From a virus, in the IMG/VR virus record IMGVR_UViG_3300035698_018088, positions 1 to 26,255 of that record: 26,255 nt of DNA. One strand, 5' to 3'. The notes below the pieces were generated by a model. That model was not told the DNA's origin, did no database searches, and saw nothing but the letters and a program-made list of their open reading frames with translations. Below, piece by piece: positions 7,113 through 20,349 of the stretch (the first letter of the stretch is position 1; each line of letters starts with the position of its first letter). Made by a program: the position numbers and the translations under genes.

Positions 7113-7682
7113 TTATAGAGTATGTATTGTTTTTTTAATTGCTATCTTATGTTTATTCCAATAATTTTTAATTAAAGTTCCAGCACTACATTTCTTATTG
7201 TTATAACATGGTATTGTCCATTTTTTACCATATTCTAACTCTAAATATCTGTTTGTATCCCTTGGTATTAGGAATTTTCTTCCTAAAAAGTCTATTTCTT
7301 TCAAATCATCTAGTATTTTAGCATTATGTACTCTACAATAAGCTCCACCAGCACAAAATCTTACAGCATTAAAGAGTTTATAATCTATAATACATGCTTT
7401 TTCTCCATATTTAGTTACTTTTAAAGCTCTTGTATACTTATAAGGATAATCAACTTCTTCTATTTTAAAGTCATTTTTAGTAAATTCTTTTATAATAGAG
7501 GAGATTTTAGGAACAAAATCTTCATGTTTTATAGCTAAATCTATATCTTTATCATCTTTTATAAAGTTACCTTCTCTCCATGCACCTAAAGCAGTACCAT
7601 GAAAAAGAGAAAATTTTACATCTACTCTCTCTAATATATCTTGAATCTCAAATAATAGTTTTTTTGCATTTTCATTGTTCAT
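7113..7682 (-). CDS. LicD-like nucleotidyltransferase-fold transferase
   Basis: Encodes 189 residues. The N-terminus carries the LicD/fukutin-type nucleotidyltransferase signature: HGTALGAW (residues 28-35) followed by DDKDID (43-48), whose Asp residues would bind metal. The C-terminal half has a YLELEYGKKW segment like the LicD tail. Family members transfer phosphocholine or sugar-phosphate groups to surface polysaccharides. In a phage this could modify host glycans or virion sugars, alongside the glycosyltransferases upstream. The start at ATG 7682 abuts the 3' CCA of a tRNA-Thr with no spacer, so there is no normal SD. The frame continues upstream into the tRNA, but that extension is tRNA sequence, not protein. 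Confidence 0.85.
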   Translation of the reverse strand: MNNENAKKLLFEIQDILERVDVKFSLFHGTALGAWREGNFIKDDKDIDLAIKHEDFVPKISSIIKEFTKNDFKIEEVDYPYKYTRALKVTKYGEKACIIDYKLFNAVRFCAGGAYCRVHNAKILDDLKEIDFLGRKFLIPRDTNRYLELEYGKKWTIPCYNNKKCSAGTLIKNYWNKHKIAIKKTIHTL

Positions 7683-7758
7683 TGGAGCTGGCGGAGAGAT
7701 TTGCACTCCCGACATTCTGATTACAAAACAGATACTCTGCTATCTGAGTTACACCAGC
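7683..7758 (-). tRNA. tRNA-Thr (anticodon UGU), degenerate at conserved positions
   Basis: A full 76-nt cloverleaf with encoded CCA can be folded by eye. The acceptor stem is GCTGGTG/CGCCAGC (one G-U pair), the D stem ACTC/GAGT, and the anticodon stem TCTGT/TCAGA with a U-U mismatch at 31-39. The anticodon loop TTTGTAA gives UGU (Thr). The variable region is 5 nt and the T stem GGGAG/CTCTC. The T loop is TGCAAAT instead of TTCRANY, and the D loop AGATAGCA lacks the GG pair. These departures suggest a weakened tRNA or a tRNA-like element. The LicD-like start codon follows the CCA directly. Confidence 0.85.
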
Positions 7759-7825: not shown

Positions 7826-7933
7826 TTATTTCTTTTTATTTGGTTTGGGTTTTTGTTTAATCTTCTGTCCAACCCCTCTACCACTACCATCTTTACGTCT
7901 TTGTCCGCCACATGTTCCAAATCCTCTTGCCAT
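7826..7933 (-). CDS. 35-residue Gly- and Lys-rich basic peptide
   Basis: A short gene with a strong ribosome site (AAAGGAG, about 8 nt before ATG 7933). The peptide opens MARGFGTCGGQRRKDG, continues with a Gly/Arg segment and ends in an almost pure Lys/Pro/Asn tail. It contains one Cys. I recall similar short Gly-rich peptides with a GTCGG-like opening beside structural genes of other phages, but cannot verify this here. The basic tail suggests nucleic-acid binding. Function is unknown. Confidence 0.7.
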   Translation of the reverse strand: MARGFGTCGGQRRKDGSGRGVGQKIKQKPKPNKKK

Positions 7934-8319: not shown

Positions 8320-8532
8320 TTAGACTTGCTTAATTACTTTTACTTTTGTTGCTTGAAGACCTTGAGGACCTTCTTCTATATCAAAAGTTACGTCATCTTC
8401 ATCTAATAGAGTTTTATATCCTTCCATATCAATATGTGAAAAATGAATAAAAAAATCTTTATCATCATCATTTCTAGTGACAAAGCCATAACCTTTTGCG
8501 TTATTGAACCACTTACACTTACCTTTGTTCAT
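8320..8532 (-). CDS. csp: Cold-shock domain protein (CspA type)
   Basis: Encodes 70 residues, a complete single cold-shock domain. RNP1 is KGYGFV (residues 13-18) and RNP2 is DFFIHFS (26-32), with the expected opening KGKCKWFNN. Such proteins bind single-stranded RNA and DNA and act as RNA chaperones or antiterminators. It is the first gene after the promoter at 8716-8744, with a leader of about 175 nt holding inverted repeats, reminiscent of the long regulatory leaders of bacterial csp genes. Start 8532 follows TAGGAA. As first gene of the late packaging/head operon it might help read through or melt structured messages; that role is inferred. Confidence 0.94.
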   Translation of the reverse strand: MNKGKCKWFNNAKGYGFVTRNDDDKDFFIHFSHIDMEGYKTLLDEDDVTFDIEEGPQGLQATKVKVIKQV

Positions 8533-8715: not shown

Positions 8716-8744
8716 AATATAGCCCAAGCTACCGGTTTTGTCAA
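8716..8744 (-). promoter_or_regulatory. Sigma70-type promoter for the csp/packaging/head operon
   Basis: A consensus TTGACA (-35, 8744-8739) and TATATT (-10, 8721-8716) are separated by exactly 17 bp on the minus strand. The -10 is preceded by GGGC, giving TGGGCTATATTA, a 12-mer shared with the promoter at 17349-17377. The -35 starts 3 nt after the stop codon of the 41-residue ORF. It faces the csp gene and everything down to the capsid genes. Confidence 0.8.
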
Positions 8745-8747
8745 TCA

Positions 8748-8873
8748 TTATTTTTTATTTTTAATCAATTTTAACATCTTTTTATAATTTTGTTTCATCT
8801 GAATCTCTATTTTCTTCCATAATACATTATTTTTATTAATAATACTAACCAACTTATCTGCTAAATTTTTCAT
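8748..8873 (-). CDS. 41-residue Lys/Asn-rich helical peptide
   Basis: A short gene with a strong ribosome site (AAAAGGAG, 6 nt before ATG 8873), 12 nt after the exonuclease stop. It looks like the last gene of the glycan operon. The peptide is strongly basic and predicted helical (LADKLVSIINKNNVLWKKIE, then a Lys-rich tail) with one Trp. No family is recognised. The clear SD and start make it a likely real gene. Confidence 0.65.
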   Translation of the reverse strand: MKNLADKLVSIINKNNVLWKKIEIQMKQNYKKMLKLIKNKK

Positions 8874-14494: not shown

Positions 14495-15185
14495 TATATA
14501 TAATACCCCTTATTAAAATTATTCCCATTACACAAATAAATAAATGTGGTCTTCTAACTACTTTTAACCATTTACCTTTTTCTAAGAATACCCAAAAACA
14601 TCTATACCAAAAATTTAAACACTTATCATTTGGATTTTTAGCTGCAAATTTTTTCATACTTTTAGTATAATAAACTTTTTTATTAAAATAATCATAAGGA
14701 GTTATACTATCATCATGAAATAAATGATTTATAGATATTACTCTCTTACCTGGAACTCTTCTATCCCAATCACTATCTTCAGGACCACTCATAGTTAAAT
14801 CAAATTTTGGACATCCTTTTGCTCTAACAAAACGAACTACATCTACAACAGTCCCATTATAAAACTCTCTTTCCCATCTTCTTATTATAGCAAAAATACC
14901 ATCAGCCACTATTACTTCTGGTATATAAACAGCATCTGCTTTATTCATTAATTCAACACATTCTTCAATAAGTTTAGGAGATATAGATTGGTCACTATCT
15001 AACAACAATAAATAATCTCCTTTAGCTCTATCAATTCCTATATTTCTTTGTTCACTTCTCTCTTTATTTTCATCAACTATAATAATTTCTATATTATTAT
15101 AAGTAGATTTTTTTATTGAATCTATGGTTTTAGTTAAATCTCTGCCTCTATGGGTAGGTATTATTACTGATACTTTTAATTTCAT
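14481..15185 (-). CDS. GT2 family glycosyltransferase
   Basis: Encodes 234 residues. The fold opens with KVSVIIPTHRGRDLTKTIDSI, followed by IEIIIVDEN, and the catalytic DxD is LLDSDQ (residues 63-65). MSGPEDSDWDRRV resembles the ED motif of chain-elongating GT2 enzymes, and a C-terminal hydrophobic segment (FICVMGIILIRGIIY) probably anchors it to the membrane. It is shorter than average but has both donor and acceptor motifs. Its start overlaps the stop of the sigma-like gene by 4 bp, with an AAAGGAA site. Confidence 0.91.
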   Translation of the reverse strand: MKLKVSVIIPTHRGRDLTKTIDSIKKSTYNNIEIIIVDENKERSEQRNIGIDRAKGDYLLLLDSDQSISPKLIEECVELMNKADAVYIPEVIVADGIFAIIRRWEREFYNGTVVDVVRFVRAKGCPKFDLTMSGPEDSDWDRRVPGKRVISINHLFHDDSITPYDYFNKKVYYTKSMKKFAAKNPNDKCLNFWYRCFWVFLEKGKWLKVVRRPHLFICVMGIILIRGIIYNVNR

Positions 15186-15697
15186 TTATTATGGATTCCT
15201 TTCAATTTTTTTATTATTTTATGATATTTTCTATGCATTTTCTGTTTTGTCAACCCATATACTTCACCTAAAGCTTCAAAAGTATAACCATCAATTAATT
15301 TTTCTTCTAAAAGTACTATTTCTTCTAATGTACAATATGGATAAACTATTTTTATAAATAAATCTTTTTTATTTTTAACATCTGGAAACATTTCAATTAC
15401 ATTTTCTTTTGTTACTTCATTATTTTCTACTATATTAAATTTATTAGAAGTAAATTTAGCATCTCTAATTAAATCAAATATTTTCCAACTAATTCCATGA
15501 TGTATTAACTTAATAATTTCTTCATCAGATTTTTTTTGATATTTATTTATTGTTTCTAAAGCTCTAAGTAATAATTCTTGATTTATATCATCTACATCTA
15601 TTGCATCATTTTTAAACCATACAGGATAATTAAAAAAAGTTTTATTAGCACGTTTTTTTATTTTATTTATTTCTTCTGTATTTAGTTTATAAGTCAT
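15182..15697 (-). CDS. Sigma-70-like RNA polymerase sigma factor
   Basis: Encodes 171 residues. The N-terminal half resembles sigma region 2: DVDDINQELLLRALETINKY, then a segment ending IFDLIRDAKF, which would bind core polymerase and the -10 element. The C-terminal half is a region 4 HTH: TLEEIVLLEEKLIDGYTFEALGEVYGLTKQKMHRKYHKI. This is the compact plan of phage and ECF-type sigma factors. It sits inside a run of glycosyltransferase genes with overlaps on both sides (11 bp and 4 bp), which is unusual. It may direct host polymerase to phage promoters such as those at 8716 and 17349. SD AAGGAG precedes the start. Confidence 0.8.
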   Translation of the reverse strand: MTYKLNTEEINKIKKRANKTFFNYPVWFKNDAIDVDDINQELLLRALETINKYQKKSDEEIIKLIHHGISWKIFDLIRDAKFTSNKFNIVENNEVTKENVIEMFPDVKNKKDLFIKIVYPYCTLEEIVLLEEKLIDGYTFEALGEVYGLTKQKMHRKYHKIIKKLKGIHNK

Positions 15698-16435: not shown

Positions 16436-16714
16436 TTATGCAAATACAAATTCTGTTTGTTTACTTTTTAAAATTATCTTTTCTTCTTCATCAGGTAACC
16501 ATTCATAATAAGCTAATTTATATGTTGTACCTCTTCCAAATTTATCTTTAAATATTTTTTTAGTTAAAGCATTAGTATTTATCTCCATTGTTTTATTTTT
16601 ATATGATATGTGAGTGAATCCTGCTGATGATTTACAAGCTACTAAATCCATTCCTGCATATCTTGGTCCTATCTTAAATCCTTTAATTAATTTTCTTATT
16701 GTATATGTTTTCAT
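16436..16714 (-). CDS. Unknown 92-residue protein
   Basis: A small basic protein with no membrane segment. The centre alternates hydrophobic and polar residues like beta strands (FTHISYKNKTMEI), and the sequence contains KIGPRYAGMDLVACKS and YYEWLPDEEEK. It is the first gene after the terminator at 16761-16839, with a clear TAGGAG site. It is therefore read either by transcripts that pass the terminator or from a promoter I cannot see in the 46 bp between them. Placement at the head of the glycan operon would suit a regulator of it, but no family is recognised. Confidence 0.75.
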   Translation of the reverse strand: MKTYTIRKLIKGFKIGPRYAGMDLVACKSSAGFTHISYKNKTMEINTNALTKKIFKDKFGRGTTYKLAYYEWLPDEEEKIILKSKQTEFVFA

Positions 16715-16760
16715 TACTATACTCCTAAGTACAGTATTTTGAATCTACTCCTATCTTTTA

Positions 16761-16839
16761 AATAAAAAGAGCACCAACTCTTCCTGCTAGAGAAAAATAA
16801 CATAGAGAGATGTTTATGTTATTAAAAGAGTTGATGCTC
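16761..16839 (-). terminator. Large intrinsic terminator with internal stem and possible pseudoknot
   Basis: On minus-strand RNA, GAGCAUCAACUCUU pairs with AAGAGUUGGUGCUC over 14 bp with one G-U pair, followed by UUUUUAUU. The opposite strand would have a C-A mismatch at that place, so the structure belongs to the minus-strand transcript. The loop contains a second perfect 9-bp stem (AAUAACAUA/UAUGUUAUU). It also contains CUCUAGC, which is complementary to GCUAGAG just upstream of the terminator (16880-16874), so a pseudoknot could form. Confidence 0.85.
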
Positions 16840-17322
16840 CTTAAATTACTATAATAATTTTCTTTTTGATTTACTCTAGCATGTTGTTTCATTTTGTTAC
16901 ATTTCCTTTATTAATTATTTTTTATTAAAAAAACTATTAATTATCTTTTGTAATGACGACTAAACCCTCTTTCCCAATTCAATTCTCATTAAATTAAAGA
17001 TAAAAGGTTGTTTTTGTTACATTATCATAAAAATTTAAAGAAGAACTTGTATCAGGTAGCATTTTAGAGTTCTACAAGGAGTGCTATACTCCTATAGTTT
17101 TTCCCAAATGGTCGGAGCGGAATGGCTTGGTCGTCATTATTGCTTCCGGAACTTCTCCTCTAATAGTTTTAAGAGATACCAGCTCTTGTGTTAAAATCGG
17201 TCTATTGGTTTTTATAGAAGCAAATACACCGAAAGGAACGCTTCTTTGATACTTATTTAATAATTGATTATCTTACAGGATTACTTATATGAAATTGTTA
17301 CGAAGAACTTACATTTTTTAAA

Positions 17323-17339
17323 GAGTAATTTTTTTACTC
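17323..17339 (-). promoter_or_regulatory. 5'-terminal hairpin of the candidate ncRNA
   Basis: A perfect inverted repeat GAGTAA/TTACTC with a 5-nt spacer begins 9 nt after the -10 box. Offset and spacer length equal those at the csp promoter (8688-8706), while the arm sequences differ. It would form the first structure of the transcript. Confidence 0.6.
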
Positions 17340-17348
17340 CTCACTTGT

Positions 17349-17377
17349 AATATAGCCCATAAACCACCCCAAGTAAA
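17349..17377 (-). promoter_or_regulatory. Promoter of the candidate ncRNA/glycan operon
   Basis: TTTACT (-35, 17377-17372) and TATATT (-10, 17354-17349) with a 17-bp spacer on the minus strand. The 12-mer TGGGCTATATTA is shared with the csp promoter, which has the same spacing. The -35 is weaker than consensus, as would suit an activated or alternative-sigma promoter. Confidence 0.72.
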
Positions 17378-17631
17378 GGGTTATTTTAAAATAGTTTGTA
17401 GAGATTATCATAAGTATATAGAAAATAACAAGTTATGAAAAATTAAAAAATAACTAAAAAAGTGACATTTTTCAATATTTAACTATATTCTTACTTTTTA
17501 TATATTTTATTTTTACTATTATGTAGTTTATTTTAAATCTCTATAAATTCTATATCTATACTATCTGTATACCTGTTATTTAGCGTTCTTTACCGGGTAC
17601 ATTCAATGTTATATACTTTAGCTATAGAACA
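17378..17631. other. Very AT-rich gap, no gene seen
   Basis: About 250 bp between the end of the 905-residue gene and the ncRNA promoter. I see no start codon with an SD. It holds weaker promoter-like pairs on the minus strand (for example TTGTTA and GATAAT with 16 bp between them, near 17404-17432), which are expected by chance in such DNA. A 7-bp stem (17583-17589 with 17626-17632, one G-U pair) sits at the stop codon of the large gene without a U-tract. Confidence 0.5.
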
Positions 17632-20349
17632 CTATTCCTTTATCTTTTTCATCAATTCTCTATACTCAGCTAAAGTCTTTTTTATGCGTTCCATTTCTTT
17701 AGTTCTATCTTTTCTCTTTGCTCTAGCATAACCTCTTTGTAATTCAGTTGCTTTATCTCTAAGATGATATAAAGCTCTATTCTTTAACTCTTTATGACTC
17801 ACTTTGTATATAGAAGTTAAAGTTTTAGAAAGTATCTTTTCATCAGTAGTTAATTCTTCTTTTCCTTCTATCTTCTTTCTCACAAGTTTATTTAATTCAT
17901 TAAGCAATCTTGCTTGTGGAAGAATTGTTGTTAAAGCGTGTTTTATTTTTGGTGATATATCCTGACGCAAGAATTCTTGTGTTTCTTTATCATATTTTTG
18001 TATTTCAGAATCAAAATATAAACTTTTATTAAATATTTCTTCCATTATATACTTTAAACCAGGAGTTAACATTTCTACAAACATTTCCTGAGGATTAGTA
18101 GCTAATTTTGCTAAATCTCCACCTGGTAAAAGACCTTCTAGAGGAATATATGTAACTGTATCTGCTGTTCTTTTGTATTCAACTGGTAATCTATCATATA
18201 AATTAGGATTTGCATATTTAAGTTTCAATAAATCTTGTTCATTACGTGCCCTAAATGCAGGGGCTGCTTTCATAAATTTTTCTGGGTGTTGCCATAATTG
18301 TTCTAATTGTAAAGGAATATTTTTTCTTGTCCAAGTATAAAAAGGAAAAAATCTTTTCATTGTAGTTTTCTCAAATTGTGTTAAATCTCCATAATCAAAT
18401 AAAAACTTCTTAACAGATTTAGAAGCAGCAAAAACATCATCTCCTTTATTTAATCTATCTATAAAATGAGCCATACGAGCATTATTTTCAATAGTTGTTC
18501 CAAATGCCATCCCTTTTTCTATTATAATATCTCCACTAGTAATTTTACCTGCTTTTGTTTTTAATGATTTTCTTAAAAATCCTTTTCCTATTTCTTTCTT
18601 AATTCCTTCTTCAATATCAGCACCATACCAACCTTTTCCAACTACTCCTGTTTTTTCTGCTTGTACAATTATATCATCTGCAGCTTGTGTAGTAATTTTA
18701 TGTAATTTAAGATTTGATAAAGCCATATTCTGTCTTTTACCTGGAATAATTTTATATTTTCTCCACATTTGAATTGCTTGTGCTTTACTATAATTAACAG
18801 GTTCTACTCCAGCAAGATAATTATTCCATGTATTACCTACCATATTTCTTAAATGGTATTGAGGAAAAGGTGCAAGTGTCCATTTTTTCCACATAGTTTG
18901 TACTTTGTCAAATCCTTGCATAAATAAATTTACTTCTTTAGGATTAAAATATTCTGTAGTATATCTTGAAATTTCTGAAGCTATTTCAGGGTCAAATACT
19001 TTATCTTTTAATGAAGGATTTAATTTAATAGCAGCTTTTGATAATGGTTGATAAAAGTTTTTTCCTTGTTTAATAGCATCATCTGATGACATTCCAAAAG
19101 TTTTACCTGCATCATCTAAAAATTCTGTTGTAGTACTTGCTTTAATTGATTTTAAACCTTTTTCAACAACTTTATAAACTGGGTCTTTCATTAAAAATTG
19201 TTCTACAGATTCTCCACCTAAACCTTTAAGATTATGAGATGTTAAAAAACTATCAAACTCTTTAAGAGTAAAATCACCTGTTCTTTTATTTAAATTTTTT
19301 GCAATATTATAAGAATATACTTTTTTATTTCCAATCTTAGCTTGTTTAAGATAGGTTAGAGCTTCTTTTTTAGTAATTTTAGGCAAATTAAGTAATTCAG
19401 GTGCTCCTTTAGATAAATAAGATATTGGTACTCCTGCTTTCATTTCTCCTGTTGTTATTCTAGATAAAGTACTTCTCATAGTATTTGATAATACTCTTGT
19501 TTCATTAGCAACTTCAATATTTGCTTGTGGGTTAGTAATTAATGTAGATACTTGTTTTTCAATATCATCTATAGATTGACCAGTTTTCTTTGAAATATTT
19601 TGTATTACATTTCTTGCTTTAATACCATATTGCATTTGTTTTGCTTTTGTATATTCAATTTTAGAAAGATTTTTTTCTATTATTTCATCTAACTGATTTA
19701 TTCCAGTTTTTGTAATAAACATTTTTCTTAACTGTGAAGTAACAGGTTGAGCTAAGGTTTTTACTTTATCAATAGTTTTAGCAATAAGAGGAACTTTTTT
19801 TGCAGTTTTACTAGCAACACTAAGTCCTTTTCCAATTCCTTTTGTAATTGGTGCTGCAAGATATGTTAAAGGGTCAGTAGCAACTTCCATTGCAAAAGCT
19901 CCTGCAGGAACTCTTGCTCCAGACCTTCTCATCATAGTTGTAATATCTTTTCTTTCTTCTCCAGTAACTCCTTTTTTAAATGCTTTAGCTAATTCTTTAA
20001 TACTAAAAGGTTTTTCTGCTTCTTTATATCCTACAGGTTTCCATTTTTTAATGTCTTGCCATAACCATTTATCAGGGTCATGTTCATGAACAAGTTTTGG
20101 AGTTTGTTTTCTAAGTTCATCTATTGTTGATGTTACTCCATAACTTGGTCTACTTATTATATCTATAATTTTACCAAAGTTAGACCTCTCATCAAATTTG
20201 TTCTTTTCTTCTCCCCCTATTGACTTAAAATCAACTTGTGAAGTACTTGGAATAAAATCAATCTTTTTTTCTGTAGGTTTAAAGTCAATTTTATTCTTTG
20301 TAGGTGTAAAATTTATTTTCTTCTTTGTAGGTGTAAAGTCAATAGACAT
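17632..20349 (-). CDS. Large internal virion protein (DNA-ejection type)
   Basis: Encodes 905 residues, mostly helical. Residues 3-47 are five 9-residue repeats of the form I-D-F-x-P-T-x-K-K. A hydrophobic/Ala-Gly region lies near 150-190 (PAGAFAMEVATDPLTYLAAP). Near residues 640-690 it carries KFLFDYGDLTQFEKTTMKRF followed by FPFYTWTRKNIPLQ. This motif occurs in very large phage internal virion proteins, possibly the LPD38-type domain of polyvalent proteins. Such proteins ride inside the capsid and are ejected with DNA. No transglycosylase motif is evident. It is the last gene of the tail block. SD GGAG precedes the start. Confidence 0.78.
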   Translation of the reverse strand: MSIDFTPTKKKINFTPTKNKIDFKPTEKKIDFIPSTSQVDFKSIGGEEKNKFDERSNFGKIIDIISRPSYGVTSTIDELRKQTPKLVHEHDPDKWLWQDIKKWKPVGYKEAEKPFSIKELAKAFKKGVTGEERKDITTMMRRSGARVPAGAFAMEVATDPLTYLAAPITKGIGKGLSVASKTAKKVPLIAKTIDKVKTLAQPVTSQLRKMFITKTGINQLDEIIEKNLSKIEYTKAKQMQYGIKARNVIQNISKKTGQSIDDIEKQVSTLITNPQANIEVANETRVLSNTMRSTLSRITTGEMKAGVPISYLSKGAPELLNLPKITKKEALTYLKQAKIGNKKVYSYNIAKNLNKRTGDFTLKEFDSFLTSHNLKGLGGESVEQFLMKDPVYKVVEKGLKSIKASTTTEFLDDAGKTFGMSSDDAIKQGKNFYQPLSKAAIKLNPSLKDKVFDPEIASEISRYTTEYFNPKEVNLFMQGFDKVQTMWKKWTLAPFPQYHLRNMVGNTWNNYLAGVEPVNYSKAQAIQMWRKYKIIPGKRQNMALSNLKLHKITTQAADDIIVQAEKTGVVGKGWYGADIEEGIKKEIGKGFLRKSLKTKAGKITSGDIIIEKGMAFGTTIENNARMAHFIDRLNKGDDVFAASKSVKKFLFDYGDLTQFEKTTMKRFFPFYTWTRKNIPLQLEQLWQHPEKFMKAAPAFRARNEQDLLKLKYANPNLYDRLPVEYKRTADTVTYIPLEGLLPGGDLAKLATNPQEMFVEMLTPGLKYIMEEIFNKSLYFDSEIQKYDKETQEFLRQDISPKIKHALTTILPQARLLNELNKLVRKKIEGKEELTTDEKILSKTLTSIYKVSHKELKNRALYHLRDKATELQRGYARAKRKDRTKEMERIKKTLAEYRELMKKIKE
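20209..20343 (-). repeat. Five tandem 27-bp (9-codon) repeats at the start of the large virion gene
   Basis: The encoded units are IDFTPTKKK, INFTPTKNK, IDFKPTEKK, IDFIPSTSQ and VDFKSIGGE. The first copies are most alike and the last most diverged, so the array looks like stepwise duplication from the 5' end. It encodes short linear motifs, possibly docking sites for a partner in the virion. Confidence 0.85.

Follow-up and report, generated by a model that had tools for sequence, protein, structure and literature searches.

Gene layout around the 917-bp gap

We analysed the window, a viral contig of 26,255 bp from IMG/VR (IMGVR_UViG_3300035698_018088, positions 1-26,255), which derives from a tailed phage encoding a P22-type portal, a terminase and an SU10-like capsid protein. 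All its major genes lie on the minus strand. The tail module is closed by a 905-aa gene (17632-20349, minus), which is separated by a 917-bp gap (16715-17631) from a 92-aa gene. The latter opens a same-strand series that runs through a glycosyltransferase, an ECF-like sigma factor and more glycosyltransferases on to the terminase. No replication genes are recognisable across positions 1-26255, although in one relative (G010) small genes fill about 11 kb ahead of the surface-modification genes; the contig is probably incomplete. Features of the gap and the associated genes are collected in Table 1.

Table 1 Features in and around the gap, with positions in the window
Feature	Positions	Strand	Observation
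Predicted untranslated transcript, about 580 nt (leader or candidate RNA)	16761-17342	-	promoter and terminator, no credible ORF
Promoter TTTACT-N17-TATATT	17349-17377	-	GGGCTATATTA at 17348-17358; shares this 11-mer and spacing with its twin
Twin promoter TTGACA-N17-TATATT	8716-8744	-	5' hairpin; upstream of cold-shock gene 8320-8532
Hairpin GAGGAGTAAAAAAATTACTCTTT, predicted 5' end	17319-17342	-	-8.8 kcal/mol, top 0.7% of 32-mers on the strand
62-codon open frame, possible gene remnant	17087-17272	-	no start codon
GC-rich core	17053-17202	.	GC 0.42 over 150 nt, mean 0.286
Domain closed by long-range helix 17139-17124/16966-16951	16951-17139	-	189 nt
44-aa ORF, possible leader peptide	16758-16892	-	Shine-Dalgarno AAAGGA; overlaps the whole terminator
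Anti-terminator-like helix 16881-16870/16796-16785	16785-16881	-	mutually exclusive with terminator
Intrinsic terminator, then TTTTTATTT	16766-16842	-	-29.4 kcal/mol
92-aa gene	16436-16714	-	first gene past terminator; homologues G026, L072 and L075 at 35-42% identity
ECF-like sigma factor, phage-encoded	15182-15697	-	NCBIfam sigma-70 family, E 3.4e-7

The 92-aa gene belongs to a family of small proteins, common to unrelated phages, with a conserved DKF...YKLxYYEW pattern. Its relatives, one in G026 (20023-20292) and two in contigs of a different type of phage (L072, 2380-2661; L075, 4885-5166), lie among small genes of early appearance.

Elsewhere in the window, an Rfam match of 56 bits marks a tRNA (7686-7758, minus) that ARAGORN missed, with an anticodon read by eye as UGU (Thr). 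ORF 7113-7715, as listed, overlaps this tRNA at its start, so the true start of the ORF probably lies further in. Two ORFs of 41 and 35 aa (8748-8873 and 7826-7933, both minus) fall below the usual length cut-off, have good Shine-Dalgarno sites and are probably real genes.

Promoter class, terminator and predicted transcript

A preliminary description of this DNA had placed in the gap a discrete untranslated unit of about 580 nt with its own promoter and terminator, a proposal that the sequence supports well. Its boundaries, 16761 and 17342, stand; its strand had gone unstated and is the minus strand, with the 5' end near 17342 and the 3' end near 16761. The unit is likely to be a real and orderly unit of transcription, as judged from the signals described below.

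By consensus score the promoter is weak (9/12), and a generic promoter scan of this AT-rich stretch, which returned 17 hits against 8.5 expected, is by itself no proof of a promoter. The proposed promoter is nevertheless credible because it has a single twin in the window with the same spacing, the same GGGCTATATTA and a start-site hairpin. The pattern TTKACW-N16..18-TATATT occurs on the minus strand at these two sites only (shuffles: mean 0.2, maximum 1), both copies having a 17-nt spacer and ending in GGGCTATATTA, and each is directly followed by a hairpin that ranks in the top 0.7% of the strand. From the twin, a structured leader of about 180 nt (8714-8533) is predicted ahead of the cold-shock gene. 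This two-member promoter class may be read by the ECF-like sigma factor that the phage encodes.

The strong terminator reported at the expected end of the unit was recovered: across the 26-kb contig, no other minus-strand hairpin followed by a U-tract falls below -15 kcal/mol. From the end of its stem to the start codon of the 92-aa gene there are 51 nt, in which the promoter scan found no good promoter; the sole promoter-like site there scores 9/12 and overlaps the start codon. Promoter class, 5' hairpin, terminator, gene order and the lack of a second good promoter ahead of the 92-aa gene can all be read directly from the DNA. A resemblance of the terminator to the plastid psbA 3'UTR hairpin in Rfam fell below the family cut-off and was rejected.

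Strong terminators also directly precede same-strand genes in relatives, in G003 (25517-25464), in G004 (26265-26211 and 16079-16025) and, just past the capsid gene, in G015 and G019. The G003 terminator and the first of the two in G004, at -39 kcal/mol, are conserved between both contigs and lie about 30 nt before a gene start.

A further helix, the anti-terminator-like pairing in Table 1, is the minimum free energy conformer while the nascent RNA reaches no further than 16784, before the last terminator arm, and its duplex reaches p 0.012 against shuffles in a post hoc comparison. The completed terminator is more stable. Because the helix was spotted after the fact, an anti-terminator switch is offered as a proposal only.

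Fold, homology and coding potential of the gap

We considered whether the product could be a stand-alone phage non-coding RNA of about 580 nt, acting in trans through its folded core and with the terminator as its 3' end, and we regard this as unlikely. Its own promoter, its strong terminator and the absence of a convincing ORF are consistent with such an RNA, as is part of the fold. The long-range helix of 16 positions that had been described is present, with 15 of the 16 positions paired (-22.8 kcal/mol, pair probability about 0.93); because 1-3 of 120 shuffles match or beat it, roughly the 1% level, the helix is suggestive and no more. The domain that it encloses folds with z -3.9, a value obtained for a domain picked for its helix.

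The rest of the fold argues against a free-standing structured RNA. No shuffle folds as well as the 582-nt RNA (z -3.2 to -3.8), but this signal is almost wholly the terminator's: leaving out the terminator brings z to -1.3, a value equalled or bettered by 11 of 120 shuffles, and leaving out the 5' hairpin too brings it to -0.6. The 371 nt around the core give z -1.2, sliding 150-nt windows fall below -2.1 at the terminator only, and the plus strand of the core folds about as well. The GC enrichment of the core noted earlier is genuine, as among 150-nt windows the core ranks in the highest 1%, but several coding stretches of the same phage equal or exceed it. Likewise, the stem said to cross the long-range helix (17118-17122/17144-17148) exists as CGGAA/TTCCG, but a 5-bp match of this kind is expected by chance. 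An 11-nt repeat, TAGGAGTATAG (17084-17094 and 16717-16727; three copies with at most one mismatch), was discarded as a special element, being mostly Shine-Dalgarno sequence and reaching this copy number in 5 of 100 shuffles.

Searches of the collections yielded no homologue, and hence no covariation. Rfam at gathering and permissive thresholds gave no match outside the terminator beyond chance, and the covariance models of ROOL (RF03087) and GOLLD (RF02032) gave none in the window at E <= 10. The ROOL search is weak alone because its control genomes gave no match either, yet it agrees with the permissive cmscan; for GOLLD, five control genomes gave weak matches, none over the cut-off. In 31 related viral contigs, collected through their capsid, terminase and tail proteins, no homologue of the RNA was detected with BLAST, with nhmmer or with a covariance model built from the one sequence, and short matches in G010, G026 and G029 were rejected as not collinear or inside genes. 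No such RNA was found upstream of the relatives of the 92-aa gene, in G026 or in the two contigs of the other phage type. DNA searches of the gap in phages and plasmids returned short chance matches or nothing, and an exact 19-mer scan of IMG/VR with a sequence from the core returned no match. Judged by capsid, the nearest relative (81%) is a fragment of 8 kb that stops short of the region; IMG/VR searches with the 905-aa gene and with the sigma factor recovered no relative, nor did GTDB genomes yield one for the capsid or the 92-aa protein. Given that no close relative spans the region, the absence of a homologue is weak evidence.

The position of the unit directly ahead of an operon also counts against a stand-alone RNA. 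With a near-chance fold outside the terminator, no homologue and no match to Rfam, ROOL or GOLLD, the earlier assignment to the large ornate RNAs of the GOLLD/ROOL type is not supported. That the product is a large, structured phage RNA of a new class, transcribed from a dedicated promoter, with a hairpin at its start, a helix-closed domain of about 190 nt and a trans-acting role during infection, seems quite improbable. More generally, a promoter, a terminator, a gap and GC enrichment are insufficient by themselves for recognising an ornate RNA.

Another explanation for the gap, which we consider rather doubtful, is gene decay or rearrangement at the junction of the tail module with the next operon, which would make the core a gene remnant and the promoter and terminator ordinary flanking signals. 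The view that the 917 bp hold no credible gene stands in so far as no ORF of annotated quality was found in 16715-17631, but two frames qualify it. Within the GC-rich core, the 62-codon minus-strand frame has a codon score of p 0.004 against the null and a GC content by codon position of 0.44/0.39/0.27 (genes, 0.40/0.34/0.13), and after two nearby TAG codons it stays open for 25 further codons. Against this, the frame has no start codon, its codon score lies below those of nearly all real genes and many frames were inspected; neither it nor the 44-aa ORF has a homologue in Pfam, PHROGs, NCBIfam, phages, plasmids or the relatives. Matches of the core frame to the Pfam porphobilinogen deaminase C-terminal domain (E 0.12) and, through repetitive sequence, to a C-type lectin in the PDB were judged to be chance.

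The second frame is the 44-aa ORF (16892-16758), the longest start-codon ORF on the transcribed strand in the gap, and that it encodes a genuine small protein or leader peptide, with the region as its 5' untranslated part, seems very improbable: its Shine-Dalgarno site (AAAGGAAAT-N8-ATG; duplex -6.0 kcal/mol) is arranged as in the cold-shock gene and the phage has other small genes of 35-41 aa with good sites, but such a length is expected by chance in DNA of this kind, its codon score falls between null and real genes at the 90th percentile of the null, and its sequence is forced through the terminator palindrome.

A candidate terminated leader and its known counterparts

The best explanation, in which we place about half of our confidence, is that the feature is an untranslated 5' leader with an in-line terminator, tuning the minus-strand phage operon. 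Its location directly ahead of the operon favours this reading. The downstream genes all run in the same direction, terminators in relatives likewise directly precede same-strand genes, and the twin promoter, too, yields a predicted leader, before the cold-shock gene.

In such a leader, RNA polymerase would start near 17342, at a promoter class that the phage uses at least twice, and would produce a partly folded RNA capped by the 5' hairpin. Most polymerases would stop at 16842-16766, releasing the untranslated RNA of about 580 nt, and a minor fraction would read through into the 92-aa gene, the glycosyltransferases, the sigma factor and further genes; by stopping most but not all transcription, the terminator would set or time expression of the operon. 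A switch might be provided by the anti-terminator helix (16881-16870/16796-16785) competing with the terminator, or by translation of the 44-aa ORF through it. Transcription itself, read-through and any regulated switch are what we infer from this arrangement. Against a leader, the RNA would be long for an attenuator and read-through is assumed; alternatively, transcription entering from the tail genes upstream could serve the operon, or a promoter that escaped recognition could, such as one read by the phage's own sigma factor. If confirmed, the terminated leader would mean that this uncultured phage group combines a promoter class marked by start-site hairpins with a terminator embedded in a long leader to control its operon of cell-surface and sigma-factor genes.

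Among known large RNAs, ROOL is an untranslated RNA encoded by phages and prophages, with an example of 659 nt (PMC12286853), and the RNA predicted here is also phage-encoded, untranslated and of similar length. ROOL, however, sits in a tRNA island, whereas the one tRNA in this contig (7686-7758) is 9 kb off, and ROOL has a multi-pseudoknot fold, whereas the predicted RNA has no homologue found for covariation. GOLLD resembles it as a large phage-encoded untranslated RNA but is larger, with many members over 800 nt, and lies near tRNAs. Size and phage origin are the only traits that the predicted RNA shares with ROOL and GOLLD.

In attenuators of the trp type, a leader-peptide ORF overlaps the terminator before an operon, and a competing helix forms. 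The candidate leader likewise has a short ORF lying across a terminator ahead of an operon, and could form a competing helix; it differs in that no stalling codons were recognised, the ORF may be due to chance and the switch is putative. Lambdoid phages have terminators ahead of most early genes, and HK022 passes them by means of leader RNAs (PMC9378689). The put RNAs of HK022 are about 70 nt long with two stem-loops and bind the zinc-binding domain of RNA polymerase, whereas the RNA predicted here is about 580 nt and is likened to them by layout alone: a phage promoter yields a nascent RNA that is folded and untranslated, and an intrinsic terminator lies before a phage operon (PMC9378689). 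The arrangement found at this locus is that of a terminated leader or attenuator, in which a promoter, an untranslated leader and an intrinsic terminator precede a same-strand operon.
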